Shown here piece by piece: positions 7,620 to 28,146 of a stretch of DNA of 64,000 nt. Location: NCBI GenBank assembly GCA_919901855.1, contig CAKKQC010000001.1, positions 124,001 to 188,000 on the forward strand, read 5' to 3'. The first letter of the stretch is position 1; each line of letters begins with the position of its first letter. Position numbers and translations under genes: made by a program. The stretch is from a bacterium (lineage in GTDB: Bacteria; Oederibacteriota; CAKKQC01). The notes under the pieces were generated by a model that searched no databases, was not told where the DNA came from, and saw only the letters and a program-made list of their open reading frames with translations.

Positions 7620-7668
7620 CGGATTCCGGCATCCGCCGGAATCCGCAAGACGTCCGTCTGCGGACGTC
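7620..7668. repeat. Pair of perfect hairpins between convergent genes
   Basis: Hairpin one (7620-7645) has 11-bp arms CGGATTCCGGC and its complement around the loop ATCC. Hairpin two (7649-7668) has 8-bp arms GACGTCCG around the loop TCTG and covers the stop codon of the minus-strand gene. Neither is followed by a T-run, so they are not classical terminators, though they may stop transcription from either side. Hairpin one belongs to the same sequence family as those at 14626, 18562 and 19914. Confidence 0.75.
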
Positions 7669-8197
7669 ACTCCACCAGCCGGCGGATCGCGAGGCGGCCG
7701 TCGCGGCCGACCGTGCACTCGACGAGGAAGGCGCCCGACCGGCGGGACGCGAACTCCTTCACCCGGGCCTCGTTGAAGTAGTAGCGCTCGATCCCGTACT
7801 CGACCCAGCCCAGCCCGCCGCCGAAGCGGCGGGCCGTGAACCGGCCGGTCACCCAGACGCCCTGGGCCGGATCCTGGCGGACCGGGATCGCGGGCCCGGG
7901 ACAGGCAATCTCGGCCGCGCGCCAGACCGTGCGGCCGTCCGGACGATCCGGCGCGGGCACGAGCCGCACCGCGACGGCGGCGCCGGCGTTCCGCGGCAGG
8001 TCGCCGGTAACGCGGACGCCGTCCAGCCTCGAGATACGGTAGCTGAGCTGGAGGTACTGCCCCGACAGAAGGTCGCGCGGGTCCACGGGCGCCGTTTCCA
8101 GGACGATCACGGGGCCCTGCCGGTTCCATTCCTCGCGGGCGGCCCACCCCCCAAAGAAGAGCAACTGGGCGAGGAGCGTCCACCGCACCCATTTCAT
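7667..8197 (-). CDS. GDYXXLXY-family membrane-anchored protein
   Basis: The protein has 176 residues. An N-terminal hydrophobic segment (about 5-22) anchors a small periplasmic domain. The family motif is present as SGQYLQLSY near residues 45-53, with Gln in place of the usual Asp. Family members are typically encoded next to a DUF2157 membrane protein, as here: the start codon overlaps the DUF2157 stop as ATGA. The biochemical role is unknown. This is the last gene of the nine-gene minus-strand operon. Confidence 0.8.
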   Translation of the reverse strand: MKWVRWTLLAQLLFFGGWAAREEWNRQGPVIVLETAPVDPRDLLSGQYLQLSYRISRLDGVRVTGDLPRNAGAAVAVRLVPAPDRPDGRTVWRAAEIACPGPAIPVRQDPAQGVWVTGRFTARRFGGGLGWVEYGIERYYFNEARVKEFASRRSGAFLVECTVGRDGRLAIRRLVE

Positions 8198-9603
8198 GGG
8201 GCGACCCCTGCGTCTCGAGGCGAGCCGTCGGGGTTTCTCCCGACGTCGAAACCCCGTGCCCGGACGACCAGGGACTGCCGGCCGCGGTTGAGGACCCAGG
8301 CGAGACCGATGAAGGCGACGCCGGCGACGATGAACGCAAATCCGCTGCGGAGCATGGTCCCGAACAGGTCCAGGAACCGCGTCGCGATGACGAGGCCGAG
8401 GAGGGCGGTGCCGTCATTGATGCGCCCGGGCAGGTTCCGGCGCACGCCCTCGACCATCAGCAGGATGCCGAGCGCCAGCAGGGCCAGGTTGGCGATCACG
8501 GCCACCGTCCCCGTGAGCCCCCAGAAGAGGATCAGGCCCCCGAGACAGACGGGCAGGAGAACGAGGCCGCGCAGGAGCCAGCCCGCGACCCGGGCCTCCC
8601 GGCCGGACCGCGCGCCCGCCGCCGCGACGAGCAACACGCCCGAGGCCGTCATGGCCAGCAGGAACCCGAGTGGCACGTACAGCTCCTCCCGGAAATCGAA
8701 CGCCGGCGCGTGCGACCGCCAGAAGAAGGTCATTGTGTAGAGCAGGAGCGCGATCAGGAAGGTGCCGAAGCCGTCCGACCGGCCGCCCGCGAGCCGGGCG
8801 GGTCCGAGCGCGCCCCAGTAGAGCGCGATCAGGCCGGCCGCCAGGGTCGCCTGGTATCCCATGGCCTGGCACTGGAACGGCGTGTGCCACAGCGACAGGG
8901 ACCAGAGCCAGAAGAGGAATGCGACGAGGAAGAGCCACCGGCTCGCCCCGCCGAGCCGCCGGGTCAGGACGACGGCGCCGTAAGTCCAGAGCGCCATGAT
9001 GCCGGCCAGCGCGGGAGCGAAGGTCGTGCGGAACTCGCCCGGCGGCTCCCCCCACCACCCCCGCGCCTCCAGGGATAGGGGCGACCCGGGGACGTGGGAC
9101 CCCGTGAAGACCGCGACGACGACCCCGGCGGCGTGCACGAACGCGGCCGTCGCATTCCCGGACAGCCAGGCGACGGGCGCGGTCAACGCCAGCCAGACCA
9201 GTAGCGGCATGAGCGGATCGCCCGAGAGCTGGTAGACCTGGCCCCACAACCCGATGCCGGCCAGGGGCGCGGCCATCCACACGAGGATCGTCGCCGCACC
9301 CAGGGTCGGGCGCGTCCGAGGCAGGCGCGCAGACGCCTCCGCGAGCCCGGCCAGGAGCAGGCCGAACCCGGCGAGCTTCCAGCCCCGGTGGATATTCTCC
9401 CAGTTGTACGCGACCAGGAGGATGATCCCGACGCCGATCGAGACCCCGCCGAGCGAAGCCAGGATCGTGAACGGGGCCACGCGCGCCGCGGCGGACTCGC
9501 GTGCCCGCTGCTCGCGGATGGCGCCCGCCTGGGCCGCCGAGATCAGGCCGAGCTCCGACCACCCGTCCAGCTGCCGGTCGAGCCACCGGTCCCGCCAGTT
9601 CAT
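8194..9603 (-). CDS. DUF2157 membrane protein
   Basis: The protein has 469 residues: a cytoplasmic N-terminal helix bundle (RDRWLDRQLDGWSELGLI, about residues 4-21, then a charged stretch) and about eleven hydrophobic helices. The N-terminal layout, with a YNWENIHRGWK segment after the first membrane helix, is characteristic of DUF2157. It overlaps both the upstream HEAT gene and the downstream GDYXXLXY gene by ATGA. The function is unknown. The recurring DUF2157-GDYXXLXY pair suggests the two proteins form a complex. Confidence 0.85.
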   Translation of the reverse strand: MNWRDRWLDRQLDGWSELGLISAAQAGAIREQRARESAAARVAPFTILASLGGVSIGVGIILLVAYNWENIHRGWKLAGFGLLLAGLAEASARLPRTRPTLGAATILVWMAAPLAGIGLWGQVYQLSGDPLMPLLVWLALTAPVAWLSGNATAAFVHAAGVVVAVFTGSHVPGSPLSLEARGWWGEPPGEFRTTFAPALAGIMALWTYGAVVLTRRLGGASRWLFLVAFLFWLWSLSLWHTPFQCQAMGYQATLAAGLIALYWGALGPARLAGGRSDGFGTFLIALLLYTMTFFWRSHAPAFDFREELYVPLGFLLAMTASGVLLVAAAGARSGREARVAGWLLRGLVLLPVCLGGLILFWGLTGTVAVIANLALLALGILLMVEGVRRNLPGRINDGTALLGLVIATRFLDLFGTMLRSGFAFIVAGVAFIGLAWVLNRGRQSLVVRARGFDVGRNPDGSPRDAGVAP

Positions 9604-12014
9604 TCGGCCGCTCCCGCCTCCGCGCGAAGCCCCTCGATCGGCCCGCCGTCAACGTTGCGGAACCGGATGCACGCGCTCCAGTCCCCCTCGCCCTGGGCGA
9701 CTTTCACGAGCACCGTGCACCAGCCCTTCGGGAGTTTGACAGGCACCTTGTCGTCCGCGCACTTGGTGCCCCGCCACGCGTTGTTGTCGTGGACTACCTT
9801 GCCGTCGATCCAGACCTTGATGCCGTCGTCGCTCCCGGCCTCGAGGATCGCCTTCGTCTTCTTCGGCACGAACACGCGGGTGCGCAGGTAGCCGGTCCGG
9901 TGCTCACCCTCCAGCGCATACTTGAGATCGAGCAGATACGGCGGGTCCGAGTCCTCGTTCCGGGGCAGGAGCCGCCAGGTGACCCGGGCGGGATCCCGTT
10001 CCGGCTCGAACGGCGTCTCCAGGAGCTTCTTGTCGTCGAGCCCCTCGCGTACGTACGGGCCCGCGATCTCCCAGGCGGTCACGTAGTCCGAGCACTCCAC
10101 GATCGAGTCGATCGAGGCCCGGGCGGCCTTCTTCACGTCGTCGGATGTCGTCACGGCGAGGACGCGGTCGAGCGCGGCCCGCGCGACCTCGCGCCGGCTC
10201 AGGATCAGCTCCCCCGCGATCCGGCCGGCGGCCGCGGCCGCCTCCTCCTTCACCGCCGGGTCATCCATCGCCTTCAGGGCCATCTCGAGCGCGGCGGGGT
10301 GGGTGACCTTGCCCAGCGCACCGAGCACGAGCACTCGGTCCTCGGGCCGTCCCGCGATCGCCCAGGCGTCACGGAGCCGACCGACGAGCACGGCGTCGCC
10401 CTCGCCAGCCTCCCCGGCCAGCCGCACGTACCCGCGGAGCGCGAGCACGCGGAAGACGGGCTCGGGAGCCGTTTTCGCCAGCATCGCGAGGTCGGCCAGC
10501 GGCGACGCATCCGGCCAGTCGCCGAGCGCGCGCACCGCGGCCTCGCGGGCCGTGGCGTCCGTATCGCCAAGCGCCTCGCGCTCGGCGGCGAGCGCGGCCT
10601 CGCCGCCGGTCCTCGCCAGCAGGCCGAGCAGCGCCGCCTTCGCCCCGCCCGTGGAGCCCGCCCCGTCCGCGGGGCGAACGGCCCGAAAGGCCGCAAGGAC
10701 GGCCGAAGCGGCCGGGGCGGGGTCCTTCATCCTCTTCACGATCAGCCCGAAGGCGTCGGCCGCGGCTTCGCGGGCGTCGGCATCCTGCGCCAGCCGGCCG
10801 ACGAGCAGGGCCAGGTGGTCCGGGCCGCCGAGGACGCCGACCACGCCCAGCGCGGCCCGGCGGACCCCCGCGTCGGCATCCGCGACGTACGCGAGCGCGA
10901 CGGGGAGCGACGAGGCCGACCCGCGCGCGCCCAGGACCCCGAGGAGGCCCGCCCGGACCTTCGGGGGCGCCGCCGGCACCGTGCCCTCGAGCGCGGCGGT
11001 CGCCGCGTCCGGCAAGTCCAGGAGGCAGCTACGAGCTGCCTCGGCGTCCGGCCCACCGAGCGCGGCCGCGAGGTCCGGCACGGCCTTGGCTCCCGCGAGC
11101 GCGGCGTCCGAGCGGAGCGCGGCCGTCCGAACCCCGGGGTCACTGTCCTTGAGCGTCCTCCGGACGGCGGGCAGGGCCGCCGCGTCGCCGCGCGCCGCGA
11201 GCACTCCGAGCACCGCGGTCCGGACCTCCGCGCTGCCCCGGGCGTTCGCGATCCGGGCCGCCCACCACGCCGTCACGGCAGCGCCGGGCGCCGCGGCCGC
11301 GACCCGGCCGGCGCAGTCCGCGACATCCGCCGCGTCGCCCGTGAGCGCGGCGAGCAGGTCGGGGCACGCCTTCGTCCCGTCCACGGCCGCGAGCCCCTCG
11401 AGCGCCGCGCACCGGACCTGCGGCTCGTCCGCGCGCGCCTTCAGCAGCCGCCGGTAGATCGCGCCCGCGGCGGCCGCGCGCTTCCCCGCCGCGAGCACGC
11501 GCGCCGCCGCCAGCAGCTCGTCCGTGCGCTCCCACCGGTCGAACCCGGTGGCGGAGGCTGCGGCCCTCTCGAGCACCTTGATGTCCTTCTCGGTCGGGAC
11601 GGGAGCGAGGGCAGGCGCCGCGGCGACTTCTCCCGTCATCCGGAGCTGCTCCTCCAAGAACTGGCGGTTGAAATCGCTCCAGGTCGTCTTCGCCAGTTCG
11701 GCCTTGACCGCCTCCAGATACCAAGCCCGCTCCGCCTCGGCCCCGGGCCGGGAGACGAAGAAGGCGAGCCCGTGGAGCGCCCACCGCGCGCCGTTGTCGT
11801 CCCCCTTGCCGGGCTCGACGAGCCGGGCCGCGAGCGCAAACACCACCTCGGGGCCCATCGCCGCGATCCGGGGCATCACGGAGTCGCGCGAGACCGTGGC
11901 CGAGGAGGGCAACTGCCCGAGCAGGGCATCCAGGTCGGTCCCGAACGGCGCCGCAGCCCACGCGGTGCCCGCGACCAGGACGAGTCCGAGCCAGGCGTGT
12001 CTCACAAATGCCAT
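9600..12014 (-). CDS. Secreted HEAT-repeat protein with C-terminal sugar-binding-like module
   Basis: The protein has about 804 residues with a signal peptide at 1-21. Residues about 150-640 are Ala-rich helical HEAT repeats, with repeated V-R-x-A-A-L and L-x-x-L-G-D patterns. Residues about 645-800 form a beta domain starting DYVTAWEIAGPY and containing GSDDGIKVWIDGKVVH, which recurs in the ThuA-DUF1080 protein of the same operon (DYITAWEVAGPF, GTDDGVKVWLNGAVVH). ATG at 12014 overlaps the upstream stop by 13 bases. GTG at 12005 would give the operon's usual 4-base overlap (GTGA) and may be the true start. It is probably a periplasmic scaffold, but that is inference. Confidence 0.75.
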   Translation of the reverse strand: MAFVRHAWLGLVLVAGTAWAAAPFGTDLDALLGQLPSSATVSRDSVMPRIAAMGPEVVFALAARLVEPGKGDDNGARWALHGLAFFVSRPGAEAERAWYLEAVKAELAKTTWSDFNRQFLEEQLRMTGEVAAAPALAPVPTEKDIKVLERAAASATGFDRWERTDELLAAARVLAAGKRAAAAGAIYRRLLKARADEPQVRCAALEGLAAVDGTKACPDLLAALTGDAADVADCAGRVAAAAPGAAVTAWWAARIANARGSAEVRTAVLGVLAARGDAAALPAVRRTLKDSDPGVRTAALRSDAALAGAKAVPDLAAALGGPDAEAARSCLLDLPDAATAALEGTVPAAPPKVRAGLLGVLGARGSASSLPVALAYVADADAGVRRAALGVVGVLGGPDHLALLVGRLAQDADAREAAADAFGLIVKRMKDPAPAASAVLAAFRAVRPADGAGSTGGAKAALLGLLARTGGEAALAAEREALGDTDATAREAAVRALGDWPDASPLADLAMLAKTAPEPVFRVLALRGYVRLAGEAGEGDAVLVGRLRDAWAIAGRPEDRVLVLGALGKVTHPAALEMALKAMDDPAVKEEAAAAAGRIAGELILSRREVARAALDRVLAVTTSDDVKKAARASIDSIVECSDYVTAWEIAGPYVREGLDDKKLLETPFEPERDPARVTWRLLPRNEDSDPPYLLDLKYALEGEHRTGYLRTRVFVPKKTKAILEAGSDDGIKVWIDGKVVHDNNAWRGTKCADDKVPVKLPKGWCTVLVKVAQGEGDWSACIRFRNVDGGPIEGLRAEAGAAE
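10659..10693. repeat. Paired hairpins inside the HEAT-protein gene
   Basis: CGCCCCG arms around the loop TCCG (10659-10676) are followed by CGGCC arms around a 5-base loop (10679-10693). The encoded residues are a Gly/Ala/Ser-rich loop (PADGAGSTGG) between helical repeats. The arms are short and GC-only, so membership of the palindrome family is uncertain. Confidence 0.35.
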
Positions 12015-13300
12015 GGCTTTCTCATCGGCTCGTCGAGCATGGCGTCCTGGGCCGCGTCCCCGATCACGCGCTCCCGCACGGGGTCCCAGCGCACGGGCCG
12101 GCCGGTCCGGATCGCGATGTTGGCGAGATGGATGTGCGTCACCGTCCGGTGCGCCTCTTCCCCGGTCGGCTTCGACGTGTGCGTGTTGTCCCGCGTCTTC
12201 ACCGCATCCTCGAAGCTCCGGTCGCGGACCGGAACCGGGACGCCCGCCGTGGCCGCGAACAGCCCCGGCGGGTCGCTCTCCGTGCCCTCACGCTCCAGCG
12301 CTTTCCCCTTCGGCCCCTCCATGAACGGCGCCTTCTTGTCCACCTTGGGCCCCCACTCGTCACTCTCGAGGAGGAGCCGGGTCCCGTCGGGCCACGTGAA
12401 CGTGACCGTGCCCCACATCCCCGCCGCGTCCGGGTGCGGCGGCCACGGCCCCGTGGACTCCACGAGCGATGGGCCAGTGAGGTCCTTGCCGAGCGCGTAA
12501 AGGATGGGGTCCATCCAGTGCATGCCCATGTCCGCAAGTCCCCCGCCGTCGTAGTCCCAGTAACCGCGGAAGCTCTGGTGCACGCGGTGGGGATGATACG
12601 GCTTGACCGGCGCGGGGCCGAGCCAGAAGTCGTAGTCGAGGGCCTTGGGAACCGTTTCGGGCACGAGGTCCGTCCGGCCGCTCCACTCCGCCACCTTCCA
12701 CATCGCGCCGGTGTTCGGGTTGAGCCGGACGGTCAGGGGCGTGCCCAGAAGCCCGCTGGTCACGACGCGGCGGAGCTTCTCGTACCCCGTCCGGCCGTAG
12801 CTGTTGACCTGGAGGATCCGGCCGTACCGTTTCGCGGTCTCGATCATGACGAGCCCCTCGCGGTGGAACCTCGTGATGGGCTTCTCGCAGAGGACGTCCT
12901 TGCCCGCCTGCATCGCCGCGATCGACATCAGGGCGTGCCAGTGCGGGGGCGTGACGACGTGGATCACGTCGATGTCCTTGCGCTCGAGGACGCGGCGGAA
13001 GTCGTGGTACCCCTCGCAGCCCTTCCCCGCCTTCTTGAGCCCCTGCGCGAGATGGTCCGCGTCCACGTCGCACACGGCGAGCGTCGCGGGGACTTCGCCG
13101 TCGCGGTTCGGCTCGATGTGGCCCATCCCCATCCCGCCGGTCCCGATCACGGCCCGGGTCACGGTCTCGCTCGGGGGCGTGCGGCCCGACTTCAGCCCCG
13201 CGACGACCCGCGCGGGCACGATCGAGAAGAGCGTTACGGCGGCCGCGGCCTCGGCGGCCCGCCCAAGGAATGCCCGCCGCGAAAGGCGAGCTCGTTTCAA
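12002..13300 (-). CDS. Gfo/Idh/MocA-family oxidoreductase with twin-arginine signal
   Basis: The protein has 432 residues. SRRAFLG followed by a hydrophobic stretch predicts Tat export with the cofactor already bound. The Rossmann fold contains GTGGMGMGH, and CEKPITR is the EKP motif. A long C-terminal domain carries GGGLADMGMHWMDP. The start is TTG at 13300, which overlaps the upstream stop as TTGA. Exported members of this family often act as glycoside hydrolases with a tightly bound NAD. No direct evidence separates that from simple sugar oxidation. It lies between ThuA-DUF1080 and the HEAT protein in the nine-gene operon. Confidence 0.85.
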   Translation of the reverse strand: MKRARLSRRAFLGRAAEAAAAVTLFSIVPARVVAGLKSGRTPPSETVTRAVIGTGGMGMGHIEPNRDGEVPATLAVCDVDADHLAQGLKKAGKGCEGYHDFRRVLERKDIDVIHVVTPPHWHALMSIAAMQAGKDVLCEKPITRFHREGLVMIETAKRYGRILQVNSYGRTGYEKLRRVVTSGLLGTPLTVRLNPNTGAMWKVAEWSGRTDLVPETVPKALDYDFWLGPAPVKPYHPHRVHQSFRGYWDYDGGGLADMGMHWMDPILYALGKDLTGPSLVESTGPWPPHPDAAGMWGTVTFTWPDGTRLLLESDEWGPKVDKKAPFMEGPKGKALEREGTESDPPGLFAATAGVPVPVRDRSFEDAVKTRDNTHTSKPTGEEAHRTVTHIHLANIAIRTGRPVRWDPVRERVIGDAAQDAMLDEPMRKPWHL

Positions 13301-15615
13301 GGCTTCGCCGCCCCTTCCACGACCCAGATGTTCCGGTACCTCACCGCGTGACCGTGGTCCTGGAGCCGCAAGGGGCCCCGTCCGACGGTGTCCGCCGACC
13401 CGCCACCCGTGGTCCTGAGCACCTTCACGTTCTCGTGGACGAGGACGCCGTTCCAGACAACCTTCACGAACTCCGCCGGGGCAAGTACCGCGCCAGCGGC
13501 GTCCAGCACCGGCCCGCGAAAGACGATGTCGTACGTCTGCCAGGTCCCGGGCGGCAGCGCCGCGTTCACGCGCGCGGGTTGCGTGTCATATATCGCCCCG
13601 CACTCGTGCGCTTCGACCGGCAGCCCGAAGGAGTCAAGCACCTGGATTTCGTAGCGGTCCTGGAAGTACACGCCGCTGTTCCCGCGGTCCTGGCCGGAGC
13701 CCTCGGGCACTACGGGCACCCGGAACTCGACGTGGAGGGTCAGGTCGCCGAACCGCGACTTCGTCCGGGCGTCGCCGCCGTGCACGAGCACGCTCTGGTC
13801 CGGCAGGATCCGCCAGTTCGCGTTGTCCCACGCCCCCATCGTCGGCGGCGACGCCGCCCCGTACGGCAGGAGGACGACCGCGCCCGGGGGGGGCGGGGCG
13901 CCTTCGGTCGGGGACCGGCGCGCGATCCGCTTCAGGGCCCAGACCCCGGGGCCGCCCGAGAGCTCGAGCCCGCCCTGCGCGACGCGCCCGGTCCAGCGGA
14001 CCTCGCCCGCCGCCCGGCCGCGCACGCCGCCGAGGGGGGCGGTCTTCGGCACGACGGCCGCGCACGCCTCCCAGCCGCCGCCGCCCTGCGTGATCTTCAT
14101 CAGTATGGTGTTCGCCCCCTTGACCAACTTCACGGCGACGGAGTCCGACCCGGGCTCGAGTCCGCGCATGACGTCGTTCGCGTGGACGACCGCCCCGTTC
14201 AGCCAGACCTTGACGCCGTCGTCGGTCCCGAGCTCGAGCGCGGCGTCCTGATCCACGGGCGACTCCACCGTCGCGCGCAGGTAAGCGACCCGCTCCTCGC
14301 CCCCGACGGCCTTGAGGAGGTCCACGACCGGCGGCCCGCCCTCGGCCGTAACCGCCCGCCACGCCACGCCGGTAGCGCCCGGCGTTTCCGGCGGGAAGAC
14401 CTCGCCGAAGAGCGCCCGGCCGCCGGTGCCGGCCTTCGTGAACGGCCCCGCCACCTCCCACGCCGTGATGTAGTCCTCGAAGCTCGCCCGGGTGAGCTCG
14501 ACCTCGCGCCCGTCGAACGCCCCCGCCGCCTCGACCGTGTCCGGCCCCGCCGCGCACGTCGCCCTGAACTTCAACGCCCCCACCGGCCAGACCCTGGCGA
14601 TCGCCGCGGCTGCAGGAGCAGCCGTCGGAGTTCCGGCAGCCGCCGGAACTCCGCTTACCCCGGACCGCGTATAGGTCCCCTCGTACTCGCCCGTGAACGG
14701 GTCCGGGGGATCGTCGACCAGGGTCGAGCTCGGGGAAGTGTCCGCGGGGAGGTCGCCGAGCGCGAACTGCGTCCCGTCGAGCAGGCACTTGAGCATGGCG
14801 GGGATCTCGAAGATCGCGTCGTCGTGGCCGAACCCGAAGTAGAACACCCGGCCCTTCCCCTCGGCCCTCACCCACGCGAGCGCGTAGTCGTCGTCGAGCC
14901 GGTTCCCCTTCCGCGGCGTCTTTGCCCGGTCCAGGGTGCAGAGCACCCTCACGTTCCGGCGCGACCACGGCGCGCGGAAGGTGTAGATCTCGTCGTAGAC
15001 GTCGAAGCCCTGCCCCCCGAACGCGGCGACGAGCGGATGCGCGGGGTCCTCGATCGCCACCCCGACTTTCTCGTGCCACGGGTGGCCGTTGAACCAGCCG
15101 CCCATCATCACGCCGAACTCCGGCCACTCGTACCAGCAGTCGGTCGCGGCGTGGACCCCGACGAGGCCGTTGCCCCGGCGGACGAACGCGAGCAGGCTCG
15201 CCTTGAGCGCCGCGTCGCGCGCCCGGGCCTTCTCCTGCGCCTTCGGGGCCAGTTTCGACAGATTCGGCGGGAGGAAGAGCTCGCCGGTCGTGTTCATGAG
15301 CACGACGGCATCGAACGCCTTCAACCGCGCGGGCTCGAACACGGCGATGTCGTCGGAGACGGTGACGCGGAACGCCTTCGTCGACTGGGCCAGGAGCTCG
15401 AACGCCTTCGCGCCCGCCGCGATGGAGCCGTGCCGGAACCCGCGGGTGAGGGTGAATACGAGGACCCGGTGCGGCCGGGCCGGCTTGGCGGTGGCCGCGG
15501 CGGGCAGGGCCGCCCGGATCCTGGCGACGGTCTCGGCGGACACCGGCTCCAGGGCGGCACCGGCGGGGCCGCAGAGCAGGAGTCCGACCAACCCAACCGC
15601 CGCCCGCTTTATCAT
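13297..15615 (-). CDS. ThuA-like domain fused to a sugar-binding-like module and DUF1080
   Basis: The protein has 772 residues. A signal peptide (1-20) precedes a ThuA/class I glutamine-amidotransferase-like domain (about 45-300, with MNTTGELF, VGVHAATDCWYEW, GGWFNGHPWH). Next comes an Ala/Pro linker (about 320-345) encoded by a pair of palindromes, then a beta module starting DYITAWEVAGPF (about 380-530) that recurs in the HEAT protein. The C-terminus is a DUF1080/laminin-G-like domain (about 560-770, with GNSGVYFQDRYEIQVLDS), a family that includes 3-keto-disaccharide hydrolases. ThuA proteins act in trehalose/3-keto-sugar metabolism. Together with Gfo/Idh partners this points to a periplasmic 3-keto-glycoside route (inference). 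The ATG overlaps the ApbE stop as ATGA. Confidence 0.8.
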   Translation of the reverse strand: MIKRAAVGLVGLLLCGPAGAALEPVSAETVARIRAALPAAATAKPARPHRVLVFTLTRGFRHGSIAAGAKAFELLAQSTKAFRVTVSDDIAVFEPARLKAFDAVVLMNTTGELFLPPNLSKLAPKAQEKARARDAALKASLLAFVRRGNGLVGVHAATDCWYEWPEFGVMMGGWFNGHPWHEKVGVAIEDPAHPLVAAFGGQGFDVYDEIYTFRAPWSRRNVRVLCTLDRAKTPRKGNRLDDDYALAWVRAEGKGRVFYFGFGHDDAIFEIPAMLKCLLDGTQFALGDLPADTSPSSTLVDDPPDPFTGEYEGTYTRSGVSGVPAAAGTPTAAPAAAAIARVWPVGALKFRATCAAGPDTVEAAGAFDGREVELTRASFEDYITAWEVAGPFTKAGTGGRALFGEVFPPETPGATGVAWRAVTAEGGPPVVDLLKAVGGEERVAYLRATVESPVDQDAALELGTDDGVKVWLNGAVVHANDVMRGLEPGSDSVAVKLVKGANTILMKITQGGGGWEACAAVVPKTAPLGGVRGRAAGEVRWTGRVAQGGLELSGGPGVWALKRIARRSPTEGAPPPPGAVVLLPYGAASPPTMGAWDNANWRILPDQSVLVHGGDARTKSRFGDLTLHVEFRVPVVPEGSGQDRGNSGVYFQDRYEIQVLDSFGLPVEAHECGAIYDTQPARVNAALPPGTWQTYDIVFRGPVLDAAGAVLAPAEFVKVVWNGVLVHENVKVLRTTGGGSADTVGRGPLRLQDHGHAVRYRNIWVVEGAAKP
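14607..14653. repeat. Paired hairpins in frame within the ThuA-DUF1080 gene
   Basis: The first hairpin (14607-14624) has 7-bp arms CGGCTGC around AGGA. The second (14626-14653) has 12-bp arms CGGAGTTCCGGC around AGCC. They are one base apart and encode an Ala/Pro/Thr/Gly linker between the ThuA domain and the next module. The second closely matches the arms at 18562 (one base different) and 19914. Confidence 0.75.
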
Positions 15616-16460
15616 CTCCGCCCTCCTGTGGCCGTCTCGAAGGTAACCCCGGGTCCGGCCCCGAACCGCGTCAGCCGGAGGCGCCGGGGACCACTCGCGG
15701 CGATGATACCAACTGCCCGACTGTTCCCGCAGACCCGGCGCACGGCCGGGGACGGAAGCACCATAAACGCCGTGGACAGCGCATCCGAGAGGGCCGCCGT
15801 CGGCGCCCACGCCCACGCCGCCGGGCGGGCCGCGGGCCGGCCCGTTCTGGGGTCCACGATATGCGGCCCCTGCGCGTGCATCCCCGACCCCGAGAGCGCC
15901 CCCGCCCGGAGCATCGCGGTGCCAAGGACGCGCGCGGGATGGAGCGGATGGCGGAGCCCGACCCGCCAGCCGCCCGCCGGAGCGGGCCCGAGCACGAGCC
16001 CCGTGCTCCCGCCGCTCTGGAGGAACGCGGAGGCGATTCCCCAATCCCGGAGCATGGCGCCCATCCGGTCGAGCGCGTACCCCTTGCCAAGCGCGCCGAA
16101 GTCGAGGGTGACCCCGGGAGCCCTCACCTTCACCCGGTGCCGGCGGGCGTCGAGTACTACCCGGCGCAGCCCGCCACGTGCGAATCCGGGGTCAAAGGCG
16201 CCGCCCGTGATCCGCCACGCCCGGCGCGCGAGGCGGAGGCAGGCCGTCGTCTCCAGCCCGACCGCGGTCCACCGTCCCGGCGCGAGCGCATTGATCCGCG
16301 CCACGTCGCTCAACGGGTCCCGGTGCGACAGCTCGCGCTCGACGGCGTCGAGCACCTCGAACGCGGCGCCCGCCGCCGCGCGGGCCTGCCGCGGTTCCTC
16401 CCCCGCGACCGTGATCCCGAACTCGCACCCCATCGCCCGGTGCGAGAGGCGGACGGCCAC
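15612..16460 (-). CDS. apbE: ApbE-family FAD:protein FMN transferase
   Basis: The protein has 282 residues. LSHRAMGCEFGI opens the domain; LSHRDPLSDVARIN, DFGALGKGYALDRM, LQSGGSTG and HIVDPRTGRP are all in the expected order. ApbE uses FAD to attach FMN covalently to a Thr or Ser of a partner protein, normally outside the cytoplasmic membrane. No obvious signal peptide precedes the domain from the chosen GTG at 16460, which lies two bases after the upstream stop. An upstream start is not possible without a long overlap. No flavinylation target is visible in the operon, so the substrate is open. Confidence 0.85.
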   Translation of the reverse strand: MAVRLSHRAMGCEFGITVAGEEPRQARAAAGAAFEVLDAVERELSHRDPLSDVARINALAPGRWTAVGLETTACLRLARRAWRITGGAFDPGFARGGLRRVVLDARRHRVKVRAPGVTLDFGALGKGYALDRMGAMLRDWGIASAFLQSGGSTGLVLGPAPAGGWRVGLRHPLHPARVLGTAMLRAGALSGSGMHAQGPHIVDPRTGRPAARPAAWAWAPTAALSDALSTAFMVLPSPAVRRVCGNSRAVGIIAASGPRRLRLTRFGAGPGVTFETATGGRR

Positions 16461-16462
16461 GT

Positions 16463-17944
16463 TCAGCGCAGGGCGCGTTCCCACAGGTCCCGGTTCACCG
16501 AGAGCTCGAGGACGACGCCGGGGCGAGTGCCGTAGTGCTGGATCACCCGGTCGCCGGCCGGCCGGACGAGATCGGGCGTGGCGATGACGACCGGGGCCAG
16601 CCGGATCGCCCGCCAGGCCGAGGCGTCCTCGGCGACGGCCCAAAATCCGACCCGGGTCAGCCGCCGCAGGTACCAGGGCAGGGGCCACGGGTCGGGGGCG
16701 ACGACGGCGACGAGCATCGCGCGGCCGTCCGCGTGCGCAGCCGCGAGTCGCTCGACGAGGGCGCCCAGCCGGACCACGTCGTCGACGGACTGGGCATAGA
16801 CGTACGGGTTCCGGCGGTCGGACGGCCAGACGAAGGACGCGCGCCACGCCTGCCACCCGAGATGCACGACCGCGACCGCGACGAGCGCCGCCCACGCGGC
16901 CCGGCGTCCGGGCCGGCGGCGCAGCGCCGACCACGTCTCCGCCACGCCGACGCCCGCGAGCACGGCGGCGCCCCACCAGAACCCGAGCAGGCACCACGGC
17001 GTCTTGTACGGAATCGCCTCGTAGAAGAACGCAAGCACGACTGAGTAGATCGAAAGGAACCGGACGATCGGCCGGGCCCGGCCCCGCCACGCGCCCAGGA
17101 TCGCGAGCGCCAGGATCGCGGCCTCCGACCAGACCGGACCGTTCGCCATCGGCCGGCTCCAGATCAGGAGGCCGAGGTACCACCCCGCGGGATGCGCGTG
17201 GTCACCGCCGGACAGTCCGAGCGCCGTCCACGCCCGGAAGGGCGCCGTCAGCGCTCCCGGCCCGCCGAGGAGGAGCGCCGAGGCTGCCAGCGTCGCGACC
17301 GCAGGTCCGATGCATCGGCCCGCATCCCGGGACACTTCTCGCCGAGCCTCCGGCACAAGCGCGACGCTGGCCACCGCGGCTCCGAGCATGAGCCACGCGG
17401 TCTCCTTCGTCGCGATCGCGACCCCCGCGGCCAGGCCCGCCCACCAGGTCCAGGCACACGCGCCCCGCCCCGCCGCGAGCCGGCCGAACGCGAGCACCGC
17501 CGCGACGAGGAGAACGAGGAGCATCTCGGGGATAGCGTCCCGGCTCCAGTACACGAACGCGGGCGAGACCGCGAGCCAGGCGCCGGCGACGCCCGCGGCC
17601 CCGGTCCCGATGCCGCCCGCGAACAGGAAGGGCGTGAGCGCCACGAGCGCCCCGGCAACGGCCGGGACGAGCCGGAACATCCACGCCTCGCCGTCCGCGA
17701 GCGACCGGACGCCCGCGAGCCCAAGGACGGGAACGGTGAGGAGCGAGAGCACGGGGCCGTGGAAGGCGGCGGGGTCATAGGCGGGGCGGTGGGTCTCGAG
17801 GACCCGGATCGCGCGCGCCGCCTCGATGGCCTCGTCCGTGTGCATGGGCCGCAGTTCGAGCCGGGGCAGGCGGAACGCGAGGGCCAGCGCGAGGACGGCC
17901 AGCACCGGGACCGGGGACCGCCGTTCGGATCCCCGCTTCCTCAT
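16463..17944 (-). CDS. Agl23-like (TIGR03663-type) multi-spanning membrane protein
   Basis: The protein has 493 residues with about eleven hydrophobic segments. The first loop RPMHTDEAIEAAR (about residues 34-46) resembles the acidic loop of GT-C glycosyltransferases and of the family annotated as flippase activity-associated Agl23. Later features are SPAFVYWSRDAIPEM and FFYEAIPYKTPWCLL, and the latter is a family signature. The start ATG shares one base with the upstream stop (TAATG). A role in moving or transferring lipid-linked sugar is inferred from the fold. Confidence 0.75.
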   Translation of the reverse strand: MRKRGSERRSPVPVLAVLALALAFRLPRLELRPMHTDEAIEAARAIRVLETHRPAYDPAAFHGPVLSLLTVPVLGLAGVRSLADGEAWMFRLVPAVAGALVALTPFLFAGGIGTGAAGVAGAWLAVSPAFVYWSRDAIPEMLLVLLVAAVLAFGRLAAGRGACAWTWWAGLAAGVAIATKETAWLMLGAAVASVALVPEARREVSRDAGRCIGPAVATLAASALLLGGPGALTAPFRAWTALGLSGGDHAHPAGWYLGLLIWSRPMANGPVWSEAAILALAILGAWRGRARPIVRFLSIYSVVLAFFYEAIPYKTPWCLLGFWWGAAVLAGVGVAETWSALRRRPGRRAAWAALVAVAVVHLGWQAWRASFVWPSDRRNPYVYAQSVDDVVRLGALVERLAAAHADGRAMLVAVVAPDPWPLPWYLRRLTRVGFWAVAEDASAWRAIRLAPVVIATPDLVRPAGDRVIQHYGTRPGVVLELSVNRDLWERALR

Positions 17945-18699
17945 TATTTCACCGGACGACCGTACACCTCCACCTCCGTGTACCGGTTCATCTCGTCGGC
18001 GGTCGACCCGTTGCTCCACAGCTTCACGTACCGCGCCTTCACGAGTTTCGCGTCGATGAGCCGGCCCTCGTAGGTCTCGAAGTACTCGCGGTCGCGCCCG
18101 ACCCCAAGCCCGGCGGTGTTGTCCGCGTCGTTGTTGTAGAGCGTCCGCACGTTCGTGATGAAGTCGGGATCGTCCGCGACCTGGACCACGACGTCGTGGT
18201 AGACGCGGGGGTCGCCGTGGTAGTGCCAGACGAGGATGGCCGCGAGCTCGCCATTGGCCCCGAGGTCGATCGTCACGGACTTCAACCCCCGGCCAAACTC
18301 GACGTACGAGCCGTCCGTGGCCTCCTTGTCGCCGTCCGTGATCAGCTTCGCCTCGCCGACGAGGGGCTCGGACCCCCCGGCGCCGGCGGGAAGGCCGGCC
18401 GCGAGGTTGACGGTGCCGGGCGGCACGCGGAATGGCGGCCGGAGCTTGCCCGACACCTTCTCGACCGTCGTGCCCGCCGGCACGTTCCTGGGCGTCCCGA
18501 TGAACGCGGGCTTCGGGAGCTTGAGGTCCAGGGGGACCCGGTCATCCGCCGCGGATGACCTCGGAGTTTCGGCAGACGCCGAAACTCCGCGATCCCCGGT
18601 TGTCGTCGCCGACACCGTCGGCTTGGCCGGCTTCGCCTTGGCCGGCGCCGCGAACCCGGGCCCGGCAAGGAGCAGGAGGAGGGCGAGCAGGGCTTTCAT
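17944..18699 (-). CDS. Secreted discoidin-like protein
   Basis: The protein has 251 residues: a signal peptide (1-18), a Lys/Ala/Pro linker and a low-complexity segment (about 37-55) encoded by two palindromes. From about residue 90 there is a beta domain with VGEAKLITDGDKEATDGSYVEF, GLKSVTIDLG and RYVKLWSNG, the pattern of F5/8 type C (discoidin-like) domains that bind sugars. A calcium-type loop would fall near ITDGDKEATD. The start overlaps the upstream Gfo/Idh stop as ATGA. It probably binds glycan in the periplasm or at the surface (inference). Confidence 0.75.
   Translation of the reverse strand: MKALLALLLLLAGPGFAAPAKAKPAKPTVSATTTGDRGVSASAETPRSSAADDRVPLDLKLPKPAFIGTPRNVPAGTTVEKVSGKLRPPFRVPPGTVNLAAGLPAGAGGSEPLVGEAKLITDGDKEATDGSYVEFGRGLKSVTIDLGANGELAAILVWHYHGDPRVYHDVVVQVADDPDFITNVRTLYNNDADNTAGLGVGRDREYFETYEGRLIDAKLVKARYVKLWSNGSTADEMNRYTEVEVYGRPVK
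18541..18589. repeat. Paired hairpins in frame within the discoidin-like gene
   Basis: The first palindrome (18541-18559) has GTCATCCGC arms around one base. The second (18562-18589) has 12-bp arms CGGAGTTTCGGC around AGAC. They encode the Ser/Ala/Glu/Pro segment between the exported N-terminus and the folded domain. Confidence 0.75.
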
Positions 18700-20045
18700 G
18701 GCACAAACTCGGCGGGAGCCAGGGCCAGGGGTGTTGACGCCGCGACCGCGTCGTTCGTCCGCAGGGCCGTCACCGCCGTCGCGAACGCCTCGGACGCGGG
18801 GCAGGTCAGCGCCACCTTCCCCCGGATCGCGTCGAAAAAGTTCTCGAGGTGCGGCTGGTGCAGCGGTTTGCGGGCGTCCGCCTCCGCCTCGATCGCGCGG
18901 CGGCTCCGCTTGGCCTCCTTGCGCGTCTCCCCGATCTTGAGCTCTATGGCGTCGCGGCCCATCTTGGACACCCGCGAGGCCTCGTCCTCCCACTGGCGGC
19001 GCTGGGCCTGCGGCTCCCGGTAGAAGAACCCGACCTTGGGGTCCTCCGAGATCTCGAGAGAGCCGCCCTCGCCCATGAGGACCTCGTAGTACCCGCCGTG
19101 GCTGGTCGAACTCAGGACCTGGTAGTAGCCGCGAACGGGCCCCGTCGGGGGGCGCCACTCGTAGATCCCCATCGTGTAGTCGCCCCACTCGTGCTCCGGC
19201 TGGACGTCGGCGCCGCCCGCCGCCAGCACGGATACGGGGGGCACCCGCAGGAACCAGTTGAACACGTCGAGCTGGTGCGACCCCAGGTCGCCGATCGGGC
19301 CGCTCGCGTACTTCCGGTACCACCGCCAGTTCCGGAGCTGTTCCATCGACCCGTACCCCCAGCGCGCGAGCGCGGCGGCATCGAGGTCGGAGCCCTTGGG
19401 CCAGCCCTGCTCGAGCGGCTTCGGCCGGTTCCACTGGCCGTAGACGTGCGTGATCCGCCCGAGCACGCCTTCGCCGTTTACAAGGGATTCGGCGTGGCGG
19501 TACCTGGGATTGCTGCGGCGCTGGTGCCCGATCTGCAGGAGCTTGCCCGTTTCGGCCGCGGCCTTAACCATGGCCCGCGCGTCCCCGACCGTGTTCGCCA
19601 TCTCCTTCTCGCAGTAGACGTGGACCCCGGCCCGGAGGGCGGCGATGGTCTGTTCGGCGTGCACCCAGTCGGGCGTCGCGATCAGGACTGCGTCCAGCGA
19701 CGCCTTCGCGAGCATCTCGCGGTAGTCCTCGTAGACGGCGGCCGGGTGGCCGTACTCCTTGAGGATGTTCGCCGCGTACCGCGAGTGGTACGGCCAGATG
19801 TCCGCAACGGCCGCGAACTTGACGCCCGGAATCTTGACCGCGGCCACGAGGAGGGTTCGGCCCTGACTGCCCCCGCCGATCAGGCCGACTTTGATATCCC
19901 CGGCCGAACCCTTCGCAGCTCCGGCAGACGCCGGAGCTGCGCGGGTGCGACCCGGCAGGATCAAGGAGGCACCCGCCAGCGCGGCCGAGGCGAGGAAGTC
20001 CCGCCGGGAGACCGCCGGTTGTGCCTTCTTCCGTGCCCGTGGCAT
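18696..20045 (-). CDS. Gfo/Idh/MocA-family oxidoreductase with twin-arginine signal; first gene of the operon
   Basis: The protein has 449 residues. SRRDFLASAALAGAS is a twin-arginine signal, followed by a short Ala/Ser/Gly stretch encoded by a palindrome pair (19914-19954). The Rossmann fold has GLIGGGSQGR; the EKP-like motif is YCEKEMA, with Glu replacing Pro; and the C-terminal domain has GPIGDLGSHQLDVFNW. Of two nearby ATGs, the one at 20054 overlaps TACAAT (20053-20058). The one at 20045 lies 7 bases after it and is chosen. Eight further genes follow with overlapping or nearly touching codons. Confidence 0.85.
   Translation of the reverse strand: MPRARKKAQPAVSRRDFLASAALAGASLILPGRTRAAPASAGAAKGSAGDIKVGLIGGGSQGRTLLVAAVKIPGVKFAAVADIWPYHSRYAANILKEYGHPAAVYEDYREMLAKASLDAVLIATPDWVHAEQTIAALRAGVHVYCEKEMANTVGDARAMVKAAAETGKLLQIGHQRRSNPRYRHAESLVNGEGVLGRITHVYGQWNRPKPLEQGWPKGSDLDAAALARWGYGSMEQLRNWRWYRKYASGPIGDLGSHQLDVFNWFLRVPPVSVLAAGGADVQPEHEWGDYTMGIYEWRPPTGPVRGYYQVLSSTSHGGYYEVLMGEGGSLEISEDPKVGFFYREPQAQRRQWEDEASRVSKMGRDAIELKIGETRKEAKRSRRAIEAEADARKPLHQPHLENFFDAIRGKVALTCPASEAFATAVTALRTNDAVAASTPLALAPAEFVP
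19914..19954. repeat. Paired hairpins after the Tat signal of a Gfo/Idh gene
   Basis: A 12-bp stem (arms CGCAGCTCCGGC, loop AGAC, 19914-19941) is followed immediately by CGGGT arms around GCG (19942-19954). They encode residues between the twin-arginine signal and the Rossmann fold. The long stem matches the family at 7620, 14626 and 18562. Confidence 0.7.
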
Positions 20046-20052
20046 GGCCGAC

Positions 20053-20058
20053 ATTGTA
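20053..20058 (-). promoter_or_regulatory. TACAAT -10-like hexamer for the nine-gene operon
   Basis: TACAAT reads on the minus strand 7 bases before the ATG at 20045 and begins one base past the stop codon of the pilin-like gene upstream. No -35 match is seen. The nine-gene operon may therefore have its own leaderless promoter as well as read-through from the secretion cluster. Confidence 0.45.
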
Positions 20059-20059
20059 C

Positions 20060-25287: not shown

Positions 25288-25300
25288 GCCGCCCTCCGGT

Positions 25301-27304
25301 TCACAGGAACAACTTCGGCAGGTACCGCGGCACGTCGGCGAACGGCTCGATCTCGCCCGCGGCGACGCGGTAAAGCCGCTCGTGGGTCGCCCGCGCGGCT
25401 TCGGCAAGCGGTTCGTAGGGCTTCTGGCAGGTGTCGTAGAAACCGATGTTCCAGTTCTCGCCGTCGGACCGGCCCAGCGCGGACTCGTCGTAGAGGGTGA
25501 ACCAGTGGACGCCGACGCACCAGGGCTTGGCGGCGGCGTCCTCGACGTACGCCCGGTACGCGCGCCCCCGGTCGGCCTGGGTGGCCACGTGCCCGATCCC
25601 GGATGCAGGAAGCCCGGCGTCCAGAGAGCCGAAGTGCCACTCGCCCACCAGCACGGGCTGGCGGAACATCTCCGCGATCCTGGCCAGCTCGGGGCGGACG
25701 CGCTCGTCGTAGCCGTTCACGCTGAAGACGTCGAAGCACTTCATCCCCTCGACCGCCCACGCGGGAGGCACGGTGTAGTACCGGATCCCGAGGTTGAGGT
25801 GGTGGGGGTCGGCCTGGCGGCACGCGGCGCTCAGCGCTCCGAAGAACCTGCCCACCATGACCGCGCTGAACCCTTCGAGGTCCGTTCTCGCCCGCGCCGT
25901 GAATGGTCCGGTCCAGCAGCCCTTTTCGATCCTCGCCAGGGTTGCCGGCATCTGCCAGGCCGCCGCGAGCGCCTCGTCGGTCGCGTGCTTCTTCCTGAGC
26001 CACGCCGCGAGCTCGCACCGCGTCCGGCACTCGGCCGTGGTGGCGAGCATGCCCTCCGCCGGCGTCTCGTCCGCGAACCCCCACGTCGGCTCGTTCATCA
26101 TGAAGTAACCGATGAACGACTTGTCCGCCGCGGTCTCCCCGAGCTGGGCGCCGAACTCGGCGGCGTCCTTCTCGAACCCGGGGTGGAAGACATCGGGGAA
26201 GTCGCGGTAGATCATGGGCGTCCGCTCGAACCGCAGCGCCAGCGGGCGCACGTAGGGGAAACCCGCGGCCCGCGCGATCCGCCAGTCGGACCAGTTGGCG
26301 ACCGTGTTGAACCCCGTTCGTCTGAGCTCGGCCAGCGCGATCGCGCCCCATTCGCCGCGCCAGCGCTCCGCCCCGAAGACGTGGATGAAGTTGGCGGCGA
26401 GGTAGTTCACGGCCGTCGCGCCACCGCCACTCCGGTGCATGGCGTCCCCGAACCGCTCCGTCACGTCGGGCATCCACGCGAGCGCGGACCCGAGCCCGTC
26501 GCAGGCGGCATCGATGTTCGGCGCGACGCAGTCCATTCCCGCGGACCAGAACGGATGCCCGTCCGGGTCGACCAGCCACCACCGCTCTCCGTCGTGGTGC
26601 GTGCGGAAGAACCCGCTGGCCTCCCAGCGCCGGGACGCCCAGCCTCCCCAGCGGCCGAAATCCCCGGGCCAGGAGCGTTCGGGCGCGGCCTCGTGCTGGG
26701 CCCAGATCCGGTCCGTGACCTCCTTGCGGCTCCGCGTCTTCCCCGGCCAGTCGTGGATCGCGCTCTGCCCGAACTCGTCGAGTAACGGGCCCTTCGGCAG
26801 GAGTGGAGCGATGAGCCGTTGCGGCTCTTCGCCGGTCGCGGCCATCGGGCCGAGCGCGAACCTGACCGGCAACCCGTCCGTGCGCAGGGTCCGGATCGTC
26901 ATCCGGTCCACGAGCCCGAGATCGACCCGGTCGCCCCCGCACATGGGCTTGAGCCACGCGCCCTCGCGCTCAAAGCGCCAGCGGTTCTGGTTCACGGCCT
27001 CGAGCGGCATCCTGATCCTGGCCTGGCACTGGTTGAGCCCCGAGTACTGGAGCCGGAAGGTCCTCCCCTTGCCGGCTTCCTCGAGCGTCAGGAGGAAGAC
27101 CACGAGCCGGGTCCCGTCCACGAGGAAGTCCCCGGTCACCCATCCCGCGTCCCGCAAGGATCCCTGGGGGAAGGTGTAAAGGAGGCCGGCGCCCTCGGCG
27201 GAGCCCGTGTACCAGGCGGAGCCCGGGAACGGGCCCGGGAGCGCCTCGCGAACGAGGCCGCCGAAGAGCGACGCGGGCTCGAGAGTCATCGGCAAGTCGG
27301 CCAT
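25301..27304 (-). CDS. GH50-like clan A glycosidase
   Basis: The protein has 667 residues with no signal peptide. The N-terminal beta domain (about 1-190) precedes a TIM barrel. EASGFFRTHHDGERWWLVDP is very like the segment before the barrel in GH50 beta-agarases. The likely acid/base is the Glu of YFMMNEPTWGF and the likely nucleophile the Glu of VLVGEWHFGS. The ATG at 27304 is preceded by TATGAT (27314-27319) with 9 bases between. Co-transcription with the secretion genes hints at a functional link, but without a signal the enzyme may act in the cytoplasm. The substrate is inferred only at family level. Confidence 0.7.
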   Translation of the reverse strand: MADLPMTLEPASLFGGLVREALPGPFPGSAWYTGSAEGAGLLYTFPQGSLRDAGWVTGDFLVDGTRLVVFLLTLEEAGKGRTFRLQYSGLNQCQARIRMPLEAVNQNRWRFEREGAWLKPMCGGDRVDLGLVDRMTIRTLRTDGLPVRFALGPMAATGEEPQRLIAPLLPKGPLLDEFGQSAIHDWPGKTRSRKEVTDRIWAQHEAAPERSWPGDFGRWGGWASRRWEASGFFRTHHDGERWWLVDPDGHPFWSAGMDCVAPNIDAACDGLGSALAWMPDVTERFGDAMHRSGGGATAVNYLAANFIHVFGAERWRGEWGAIALAELRRTGFNTVANWSDWRIARAAGFPYVRPLALRFERTPMIYRDFPDVFHPGFEKDAAEFGAQLGETAADKSFIGYFMMNEPTWGFADETPAEGMLATTAECRTRCELAAWLRKKHATDEALAAAWQMPATLARIEKGCWTGPFTARARTDLEGFSAVMVGRFFGALSAACRQADPHHLNLGIRYYTVPPAWAVEGMKCFDVFSVNGYDERVRPELARIAEMFRQPVLVGEWHFGSLDAGLPASGIGHVATQADRGRAYRAYVEDAAAKPWCVGVHWFTLYDESALGRSDGENWNIGFYDTCQKPYEPLAEAARATHERLYRVAAGEIEPFADVPRYLPKLFL

Positions 27305-27313
27305 GGAGATTCC

Positions 27314-27354
27314 ATCATACAATCGTCGCCGCGGTCGTGACGGCCTAGTAGAAT
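27314..27354. promoter_or_regulatory. Divergent -10-like hexamers
   Basis: TATGAT on the minus strand (27314-27319) is 9 bases before the ATG at 27304. TAGAAT on the plus strand (27349-27354) is 9 bases before the ATG at 27364, with AAGG in between that could serve as a weak ribosome site. Confidence 0.45.
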
Positions 27355-27363
27355 AAGGGCACG

Positions 27364-28146
27364 ATGACGAACCGGCTGATCCATCTGCTGCGCACGCTGT
27401 GGTTCATGGTCGCGGTGGCCGCCTCGTGCATCGTGCTCTCGATCCCCGTCTTCATCGGCATCTTCGCCGGCCAGGGCGACCGCGCCCTCCCCCCGGGACT
27501 CGTCGCGTGGTTCTGGTGCTGGTTCCGGGCCCCCGGCGTCCGGCCCGTGATCCTGGGCCGCGAGCACATCGAGCCGTACCGCGGTCGCCCCCTGATCCTG
27601 GTGGGTAACCACCAGAGCGCGATGGACATCCCGATCCTGATCCTCGCGTCGCACGGCCGGATCCGGTTCCTGGCCAAGAAGTCGCTCTTCTGGGTCCCGA
27701 TCGTGGGCTGGATCATGAAGCTGACGGGATTCACGGCGATCGACCGCAAGAGCGCGCGGAAGACCCGGCCCGCGCTTGAAGCCGCGCTCCTCAAGATCAC
27801 CCGGGGGCGGAACCACTGGGTCATATTCCCCGAGGGAACGCGCTCCACGACCCCGGAGCTCCTGCCCTACCACCGCGGGACGTTCAACTTCGCGCGGCAG
27901 GCGGGTGTGCCCATCGTCCCCTTCGCCCTCGACGGCGGGGGCGCGCTCATGCCCAAAGGGGCATGGTCTCCGTCTGCGGGGACCATGACCCTAGTGATCG
28001 GCGAGCCGATCCTGGTCGAAGATGTGGCCCGGCTGAGCCCCGACGAGCTGCTCGTCCGGGCCCGGACGTTCACCGAGTCCGCTCTGGCCCGCTTGCGGCG
28101 CCAGGCCGATCCCACCACGCCCCCGGGAGGCCCGGCCCGGTCGTGA
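27364..28146 (+). CDS. plsC: 1-acyl-sn-glycerol-3-phosphate acyltransferase family (PlsC)
   Basis: The protein has 260 residues. An N-terminal membrane helix (about 10-35) is followed by NHQSAMD (82-88), the catalytic H-x4-D motif, then FPEGTRS (about 155) and VPIVPFAL, in the usual PlsC order. It makes phosphatidic acid from lysophosphatidate. The C-terminal tail is Pro/Gly-rich. The region after VPFALDGGG contains a hairpin pair (27948-27987) within the coding sequence. The next gene overlaps it as GTGA. Confidence 0.85.
   Translation: MTNRLIHLLRTLWFMVAVAASCIVLSIPVFIGIFAGQGDRALPPGLVAWFWCWFRAPGVRPVILGREHIEPYRGRPLILVGNHQSAMDIPILILASHGRIRFLAKKSLFWVPIVGWIMKLTGFTAIDRKSARKTRPALEAALLKITRGRNHWVIFPEGTRSTTPELLPYHRGTFNFARQAGVPIVPFALDGGGALMPKGAWSPSAGTMTLVIGEPILVEDVARLSPDELLVRARTFTESALARLRRQADPTTPPGGPARS
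27948..27987. repeat. Overlapping hairpin pair in plsC
   Basis: CATGCCC arms around AAAG (27948-27965) share their last bases with an 11-bp stem whose left arm is CATGGTCTCCG and loop TCTG (27962-27987, one G-T pair). The encoded residues MPKGAWSPSAGTM form a surface loop of the acyltransferase. Confidence 0.5.

Follow-up and report, generated by a model that had tools for sequence, protein, structure and literature searches.

A probably mobile family of small two-hairpin palindromes, in frame within proteins of an uncultured high-GC bacterium

Background

Palindromes inserted in frame have counted chiefly as an oddity of Rickettsia and Wolbachia, with intragenic REPs as occasional further cases; the Rickettsia palindromic elements (RPEs) were reportedly described by Ogata et al. 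in 2000 and 2002. RPEs are short palindromes that lie in frame in many unrelated genes and also between genes (PMC2229807, PMC10969869). The element described here resembles RPEs and their Wolbachia counterparts in its in-frame insertion into unrelated, apparently intact genes, in having intergenic copies and in encoding a conserved peptide. However, RPEs measure 105-146 bp, form one long stem-loop and occur in AT-rich intracellular bacteria, whereas this element is about 48 bp long, consists of two hairpins and is found in an uncultured lineage of 71% GC. One of these hairpins, which we call A, is free in sequence. Size, architecture and lineage thus set the element apart from the Rickettsia RPE family, and it is not a member.

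GTAG- or CGTC-tagged REPs, intragenic ones included, are small hairpins present in tens of copies and located near gene 3' ends (PMC3733652). They share with the present element copies that abut stop codons, intragenic copies and targets among replication and repair genes (here dnaG and holA), and the 57 sites found among the best 150 candidates fall in the range of tens to hundreds of dispersed stem-loops that characterizes a REP. Those REPs are tagged, whereas the element here, with a stem of about 12 bp, is untagged at both ends: by eye, the flanks of 29 delimited copies have no unpaired GTAG or CGTC tag in common. Nor is it a REP dimer: in a REPIN or BIME one REP is joined to an inverted copy of itself, but the sequence of hairpin A bears no relation to that of its partner, hairpin B. 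We therefore file the element as neither RPE nor REP, since its size and architecture differ from the former and the GTAG/CGTC tag of the latter is absent. Fungal and other mitochondrial double-hairpin elements and GC-cluster elements are also very short mobile two-hairpin units, an apparent likeness of shape only. According to a proposal in PMC8794818, perfect hairpins are generated and preserved by template switching; such hairpins share with our element perfect stems that are kept through paired changes, but the proposal concerns a mutational process, whereas the element is a dispersed family of insertions.

Sequence data and searches

The window, by which we mean the whole stretch of DNA analysed, is 64,000 nt long and corresponds to bases 124001-188000 of contig C1, in an assembly of 4.68 Mb (91 contigs, 93% complete, about 71% GC). 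An Rfam search of the window returned a tRNA as its sole match. Covariance model R1 represents the 28-nt hairpin B and was trained on 25 B hairpins; the best 150 candidates of its genome search were scored, so copy numbers are approximate. A two-hairpin (A+B) model, R2, rests on seven copies that share one geometry and recovers the R1 family in this genome. Genic and frame counts use the calls of a home-made codon-score gene caller.

Results and discussion

Copies in the window

The copies in the window and the genes that carry them are as follows.

7620..7645, minus strand: hairpin B, 11-bp stem, loop ATCC, 37 bits with R1; intergenic
7649..7668, minus strand: hairpin A of the same copy, GACGTCCG-CAGA-CGGACGTC, overlapping the stop codon of gene 7667-8197
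8211..8256, plus strand: fifth copy of the A+B unit, now decayed, within the C-terminal tail of gene 8194-9603; 42 bits with R2, E 3e-6, weak fold
13297..15615, minus strand: host gene whose exported product has a ThuA domain and a 3-keto-disaccharide hydrolase (DUF1080) domain; element at about residue 320, in the linker
14607..14624, plus strand: hairpin A, CGGCTGC-AGGA-GCAGCCG
14626..14653, plus strand: hairpin B, CGGAGTTCCGGC-AGCC-GCCGGAACTCCG; minus-strand reading GVPAAAGTP
17944..18699, minus strand: host gene for a small exported protein without a Pfam domain; element at about residue 36, past the signal peptide
18540..18560, plus strand: hairpin A, GGTCATCCG-CCG-CGGATGACC
18562..18589, plus strand: hairpin B, CGGAGTTTCGGC-AGAC-GCCGAAACTCCG; minus-strand reading GVSASAETP
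18696..20054, minus strand: host gene for a Gfo/Idh/MocA oxidoreductase with a Tat-type signal; element at about residue 37, ahead of the Rossmann domain (54-177)
19914..19941, plus strand: hairpin B, CGCAGCTCCGGC-AGAC-GCCGGAGCTGCG, lacking a clear hairpin A; minus-strand reading AAPASAGAA, after the Tat-type signal

An earlier note, made from the letters of the window, had reported four hairpins with one shared arm, and all four lie where it placed them, with a stem of 11 bp at 7620-7645 and of 12 bp at the other three and, in that order, the loops ATCC, AGCC, AGAC and AGAC that it gave. Its assignment of three of them to genes for exported proteins is borne out as well: three of the four are genic, and by eye all three hosts have an N-terminal export signal. 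The description of a family in protein linkers does not cover 7620-7645, which sits between convergent genes ending at 7612 and 7667. The shorter neighbouring hairpin that the note described is present at 7649-7668, 14607-14624 and 18540-18560, but 19914-19941 has none of at least 6 bp on the conserved side. Because hairpin A is missing there and Gfo/Idh homologues have a pre-domain segment of similar length, 19914-19941 is the weakest and least certain of the four. Looser hairpins at 18-55, 10659-10693, 27948-27987, 49509-49543 and 53833-53877, also put forward as members, receive no meaningful score with R1 or R2 and do not belong to the family. The decayed copy at 8211-8256 was absent from that first list.

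Five copies within about 12 kb (7620-19941) form a local cluster, against about 50 in 4.7 Mb. The genome is rich in exported sugar-catabolic proteins, with many Gfo/Idh/MocA oxidoreductases, ThuA and DUF1080 proteins (e.g. 6581-7612, 12002-13219 and 18696-20054).

A dispersed family, found in one of 145 genomes

Among the best 150 candidates, R1 identifies 57 distinct sites in the genome, about 50 of them convincing. The consensus of hairpin B is CGGAGTTTCGGC-GGAC-GCCGAAACTCCG; five sites carry identical consensus copies (50.3 bits with R1), and consensus copies, identical ones included, are found between genes too. The genome search with arm sequences that the earlier note had proposed returns a dispersed family with counts well above control: TTYCGGCNNNCGCCGRAA has 23 forward matches against none for the reversed pattern, and TYCGGCNNNNGCCGRA has 46 matches against 13. 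These counts uphold its judgement that perfect 12-bp stems of common sequence exceed chance. Single hairpins of at least 10 bp and adjacent hairpin pairs are likewise more frequent than in third-order Markov sequence. R1 has no match at E<=1e-5 in 144 other genomes, leaving this genome alone among 145, and the 22-nt consensus has no exact match in viral contigs. Outside the element, the flanks of different copies have nothing notable in common, the exceptions being one 40-bp match and overlapping loci. Three weak R1 sites, C2:8563, C1:80579 and C10:140555, show broken stems and probably reflect chance.

Two hairpins, one fixed and one free in sequence

When B is oriented by its loop, a perfect stem of at least 6 bp no more than 4 nt away lies 5' of it in 30 of 56 copies; the same kind of stem lies 3' in 2 of 56, and shuffled flanks yield one in 1.4% of cases. 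This hairpin A differs in sequence from copy to copy (GGCTGC/GCAGCC, CGTCCG/CGGACG, GGTCG/CGACC and others), and its loops, such as AGGA, AAGA, CAGA, CGGA and AGG, are mostly purine-rich. The full unit therefore reads as hairpin A (usually 7-9 bp, sequence free), a gap of 0-3 nt and hairpin B, which has a stem of about 12 bp with a fixed core sequence and in most cases the loop GGAC. It spans about 45-55 bp and typically about 48. Folded as single-stranded DNA, the three window copies that have hairpin A form two hairpins, with z-scores of -6.7 to -8.5.

Some intergenic copies (C1:131619, C42:105967, C57:35184 and C15:88) have a 7-8 bp A stem CGTCCG/CGGACG and a spacer of 2-3 nt. The intergenic type of B has 11 bp and arms CGAG/CTCG, the genic type a spacer of 0-1 nt and arms CGGAG/CTCCG, a difference that is a tendency only. 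The genic and intergenic geometries possibly represent two subfamilies.

Host proteins with and without the element

The one same-family genome compared, G001, has no R1 match. Its DnaG (59% identity, full length) is a net 16 residues shorter at the element, a difference of 48 nt, which is as long as A+B in this gene. Its HolA has about 20 residues fewer at the element. In its TrpE, the part that the element encodes is missing together with some residues next to it, and four more distantly related TrpE proteins are likewise shorter at the element. G001 is the nearest genome but belongs to another genus (about 52-62% protein identity), so that these are comparisons of proteins and not of nucleotide-level empty sites. 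Since the segment is lacking from DnaG, HolA and TrpE of G001, and the DnaG difference is exactly 16 codons, we interpret the copies as in-frame insertions. Together with genome-wide copies and a bias to a single reading frame, described below, this supports the earlier note's suggestion of palindromic elements inserted in frame in the manner of RPEs, and we are highly confident that a family with in-frame insertion exists. Taken as a whole, that note was right at its core and wrong about the looser hairpins; one of its four copies is intergenic, and its link to a RAYT, taken up below, holds in part. Other hosts are less informative: ThuA/DUF1080 homologues fail to align across the linker, and in Gfo/Idh homologues the pre-domain segment is about as long as in the 19914 host. 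A copy in a sugar-kinase gene on contig C40 differs from homologues by a loose 6-10 residues and may be a chance hairpin.

Paired substitutions and the question of present mobility

Both stems vary almost exclusively by paired changes. In B, 7 of 12 pairs vary on both sides, with 32 two-sided cells against 1 one-sided, and none of 500 shuffles reaches the observed covariation score; across A+B, 11 of 19 pairs vary on both sides (18 two-sided cells, 0 one-sided). Pairing was partly preselected, through the inner six B pairs and the perfect pairing required of A, but this preselection does not extend to how varied the compensated pairs are. One-sided G-T steps (G-U in RNA) are nearly absent in both stems, from which we infer that pairing is upheld at the level of DNA and not of RNA.

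Change on both sides of a pair, with next to no one-sided intermediate, is also what arm-to-arm copying is expected to leave, and template switching is a proposed means of making and keeping perfect hairpins (PMC8794818). The copies could on this account be immobile now, remnants of an old invasion whose stems are perfect only through template-switch (quasi-palindrome) correction in replication; the decay of the 8211-8256 copy and the lack of a linked transposase point the same way. By contrast, absence from G001 and the several identical consensus B copies suggest spread after the genera split, and we regard present immobility as unlikely. The explanation that we prefer, and consider probable, is a lineage-specific, small, non-autonomous two-hairpin palindromic mobile element, whose distribution reflects spread followed by filtering at the protein level.

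Coding context and reading frame

Genic sites number 35 of 57 and intergenic sites 22 of 57, an intergenic excess (P about 2e-10) given that 92% of the sampled sequence is coding. Several intergenic copies begin only a few bases away from a stop codon, and some have convergent genes on their two sides. Relative to the host gene, 17 genic copies have the same orientation and 18 the opposite. One frame is used by 26 of the 35 genic copies and, once two weak sites with broken stems are left out, by 25 of the 27 interior copies, for which the distance to either end of the gene exceeds about 20 residues (P about 2e-10). The exceptions are mostly at gene ends, TrpE being a true interior exception. 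In the favoured frame the element reads GGA GTT TCG GCG nnC GCC GAA ACT CCG, or GVSA(S/D)AETP, and thus adds a short linker of hydrophilic character to the protein. Codons of this peptide are rare in the genome (GTT is 3.7% of Val and ACT 2.6% of Thr, with GC3 at 92%), which indicates an origin at the DNA level. The consensus, read directly, is free of stops in all six frames. As to the length of the whole element modulo 3, its outer edges are uncertain by 1-3 nt.

Where the host has Pfam domains, copies fall outside them or in the gaps between them:

ThuA/DUF1080 protein: between the domains
Gfo/Idh oxidoreductase: between the Tat signal and the domain
DnaG: past the DnaB-binding domain
HolA: ahead of the C-terminal domain
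GH5/CBM6 protein: between the domains
ParA-like/T2SSE protein: between the domains
MotB-like protein: after OmpA
Adenylate kinase: C-terminal to the enzyme
TrpE: between the N-domain and the chorismate-binding domain

The excess of intergenic sites would also be expected if the hairpins were functional RNA or DNA motifs under selection (terminators, stabilisers of mRNA 3' ends or protein-binding sites) and not mobile. Copies that start close to stop codons agree with such a function, as do those flanked by convergent genes, the place for a two-way terminator, and the intergenic tendency to another geometry (an A stem of 8, a spacer of 2-3 and an 11-bp B with CGAG). However, 35 copies are genic and their orientations are even (17/18), where a strand-specific RNA signal would differ; no U-tract or T run follows B or A in the listed copies; RNA stems should show one-sided G-U intermediates, which are scarce here (1 vs 32 in B, 0 vs 18 in A+B); and G001, of the same family, lacks any copy. 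A functional motif is thus an improbable account of the whole, though some intergenic copies may have been recruited as terminators. That Ala/Ser/Pro low-complexity linkers at 71% GC yield palindromes by chance through protein-level convergence could explain the single 19914-19941 copy, with its AAPASAGAA signal-peptide-end segment, its lack of hairpin A and a homologue spacer of about equal length, but is refuted for the family by the intergenic copies of the same 28-mer, identical consensus copies among them, and opposed by the rare codons, the reversed-pattern control of 0 and the company of hairpin A, so that we give it almost no weight.

A candidate mobilising enzyme and mechanism

The genome holds three genes for Y1_Tnp (HUH) proteins, matching PF01797 above its curated cut-off, with readable HVH/HYH motifs and downstream Tyr motifs. 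These RAYT-like Y1/HUH transposases are 338-346 aa long and have an extra C-terminal region:

C21:172: L176, RAYT-like Y1/HUH transposase gene
C23:40452: L177, RAYT-like Y1/HUH transposase gene
C60:72837: L178, RAYT-like Y1/HUH transposase gene

By eye, the gene on C60 lies between mutL-like and miaA-like genes. No B hairpin was found around the three Y1 genes, one of which is 172 bases from a contig end and has a single visible side, and R1 has no good match on their contigs. Because no copy flanks these genes and their contigs hold no good R1 match, the HUH enzyme is not linked to the element; the RAYT-like transposase that the earlier note proposed to look for is present in the genome, but none is flanked by the element. 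Direct repeats at element edges, known to 1-3 nt only, are no more frequent than in shuffled pairs, where a DDE-type MITE would combine terminal inverted repeats with a target-site duplication. That no target-site duplications were seen at this resolution fits HUH elements, yet leaves no signature of transposition.

Under the mobile-element reading, the unit would spread in single-stranded form, folded into its hairpins, and a nuclease would recognise hairpin B through the sequence of its core and hairpin A through its shape. The nuclease would most likely be an HUH (Y1/RAYT-like) transposase acting in trans, although we put spread by such an enzyme at somewhat below an even chance. Selection would then remove insertions that break domains or are read in other frames. 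Perfect pairing despite drift might come from repeated passage through the hairpin form, from template-switch copying of one arm to the other, or from both.

Significance and related observations

We offer tentatively, as a joint claim that is rather doubtful in its entirety, that the element represents an undescribed class: a protein-coding mobile two-hairpin palindrome in a bacterium far from Rickettsia, with B known by sequence and A only by shape, with pairing renewed as DNA, encoding interdomain linkers of 15-17 residues and divided into genic and intergenic geometric subfamilies shaped by frame selection. As a compact, lineage-restricted family at 71% GC that enters housekeeping proteins such as DNA primase and polymerase III delta, the element shows this mode of insertion to have arisen again with another architecture. 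From the strict bias to one frame, the selection that proteins impose on random insertions can be measured cleanly. Hairpin A, in combining perfect pairing with free sequence, makes transposition and template switching testable against each other as the means of stem upkeep.

In the same phylum, a CGTC-tagged REP, CGTCATTCCGGCGAAAGCCGGAATCCAG, occurs in genomes of family f8 (G008, G013, G021 and G025; e.g. loci L208, L215 and L216) at up to about 20 places per genome. It has the stem core TTCCGGC...GCCGGAA in common with hairpin B, but differs in its CGTC tag, its loop GAAA/TTTC, its sometimes inverted pairs 58 bp apart and its lack of hairpin A. Finally, two 12-bp hairpins at L016:3092-3119 and L016:4561-4590, 1.5 kb apart, share the arm GACCGGGGGGCC, which is unrelated to B, and are perhaps another small palindrome family.
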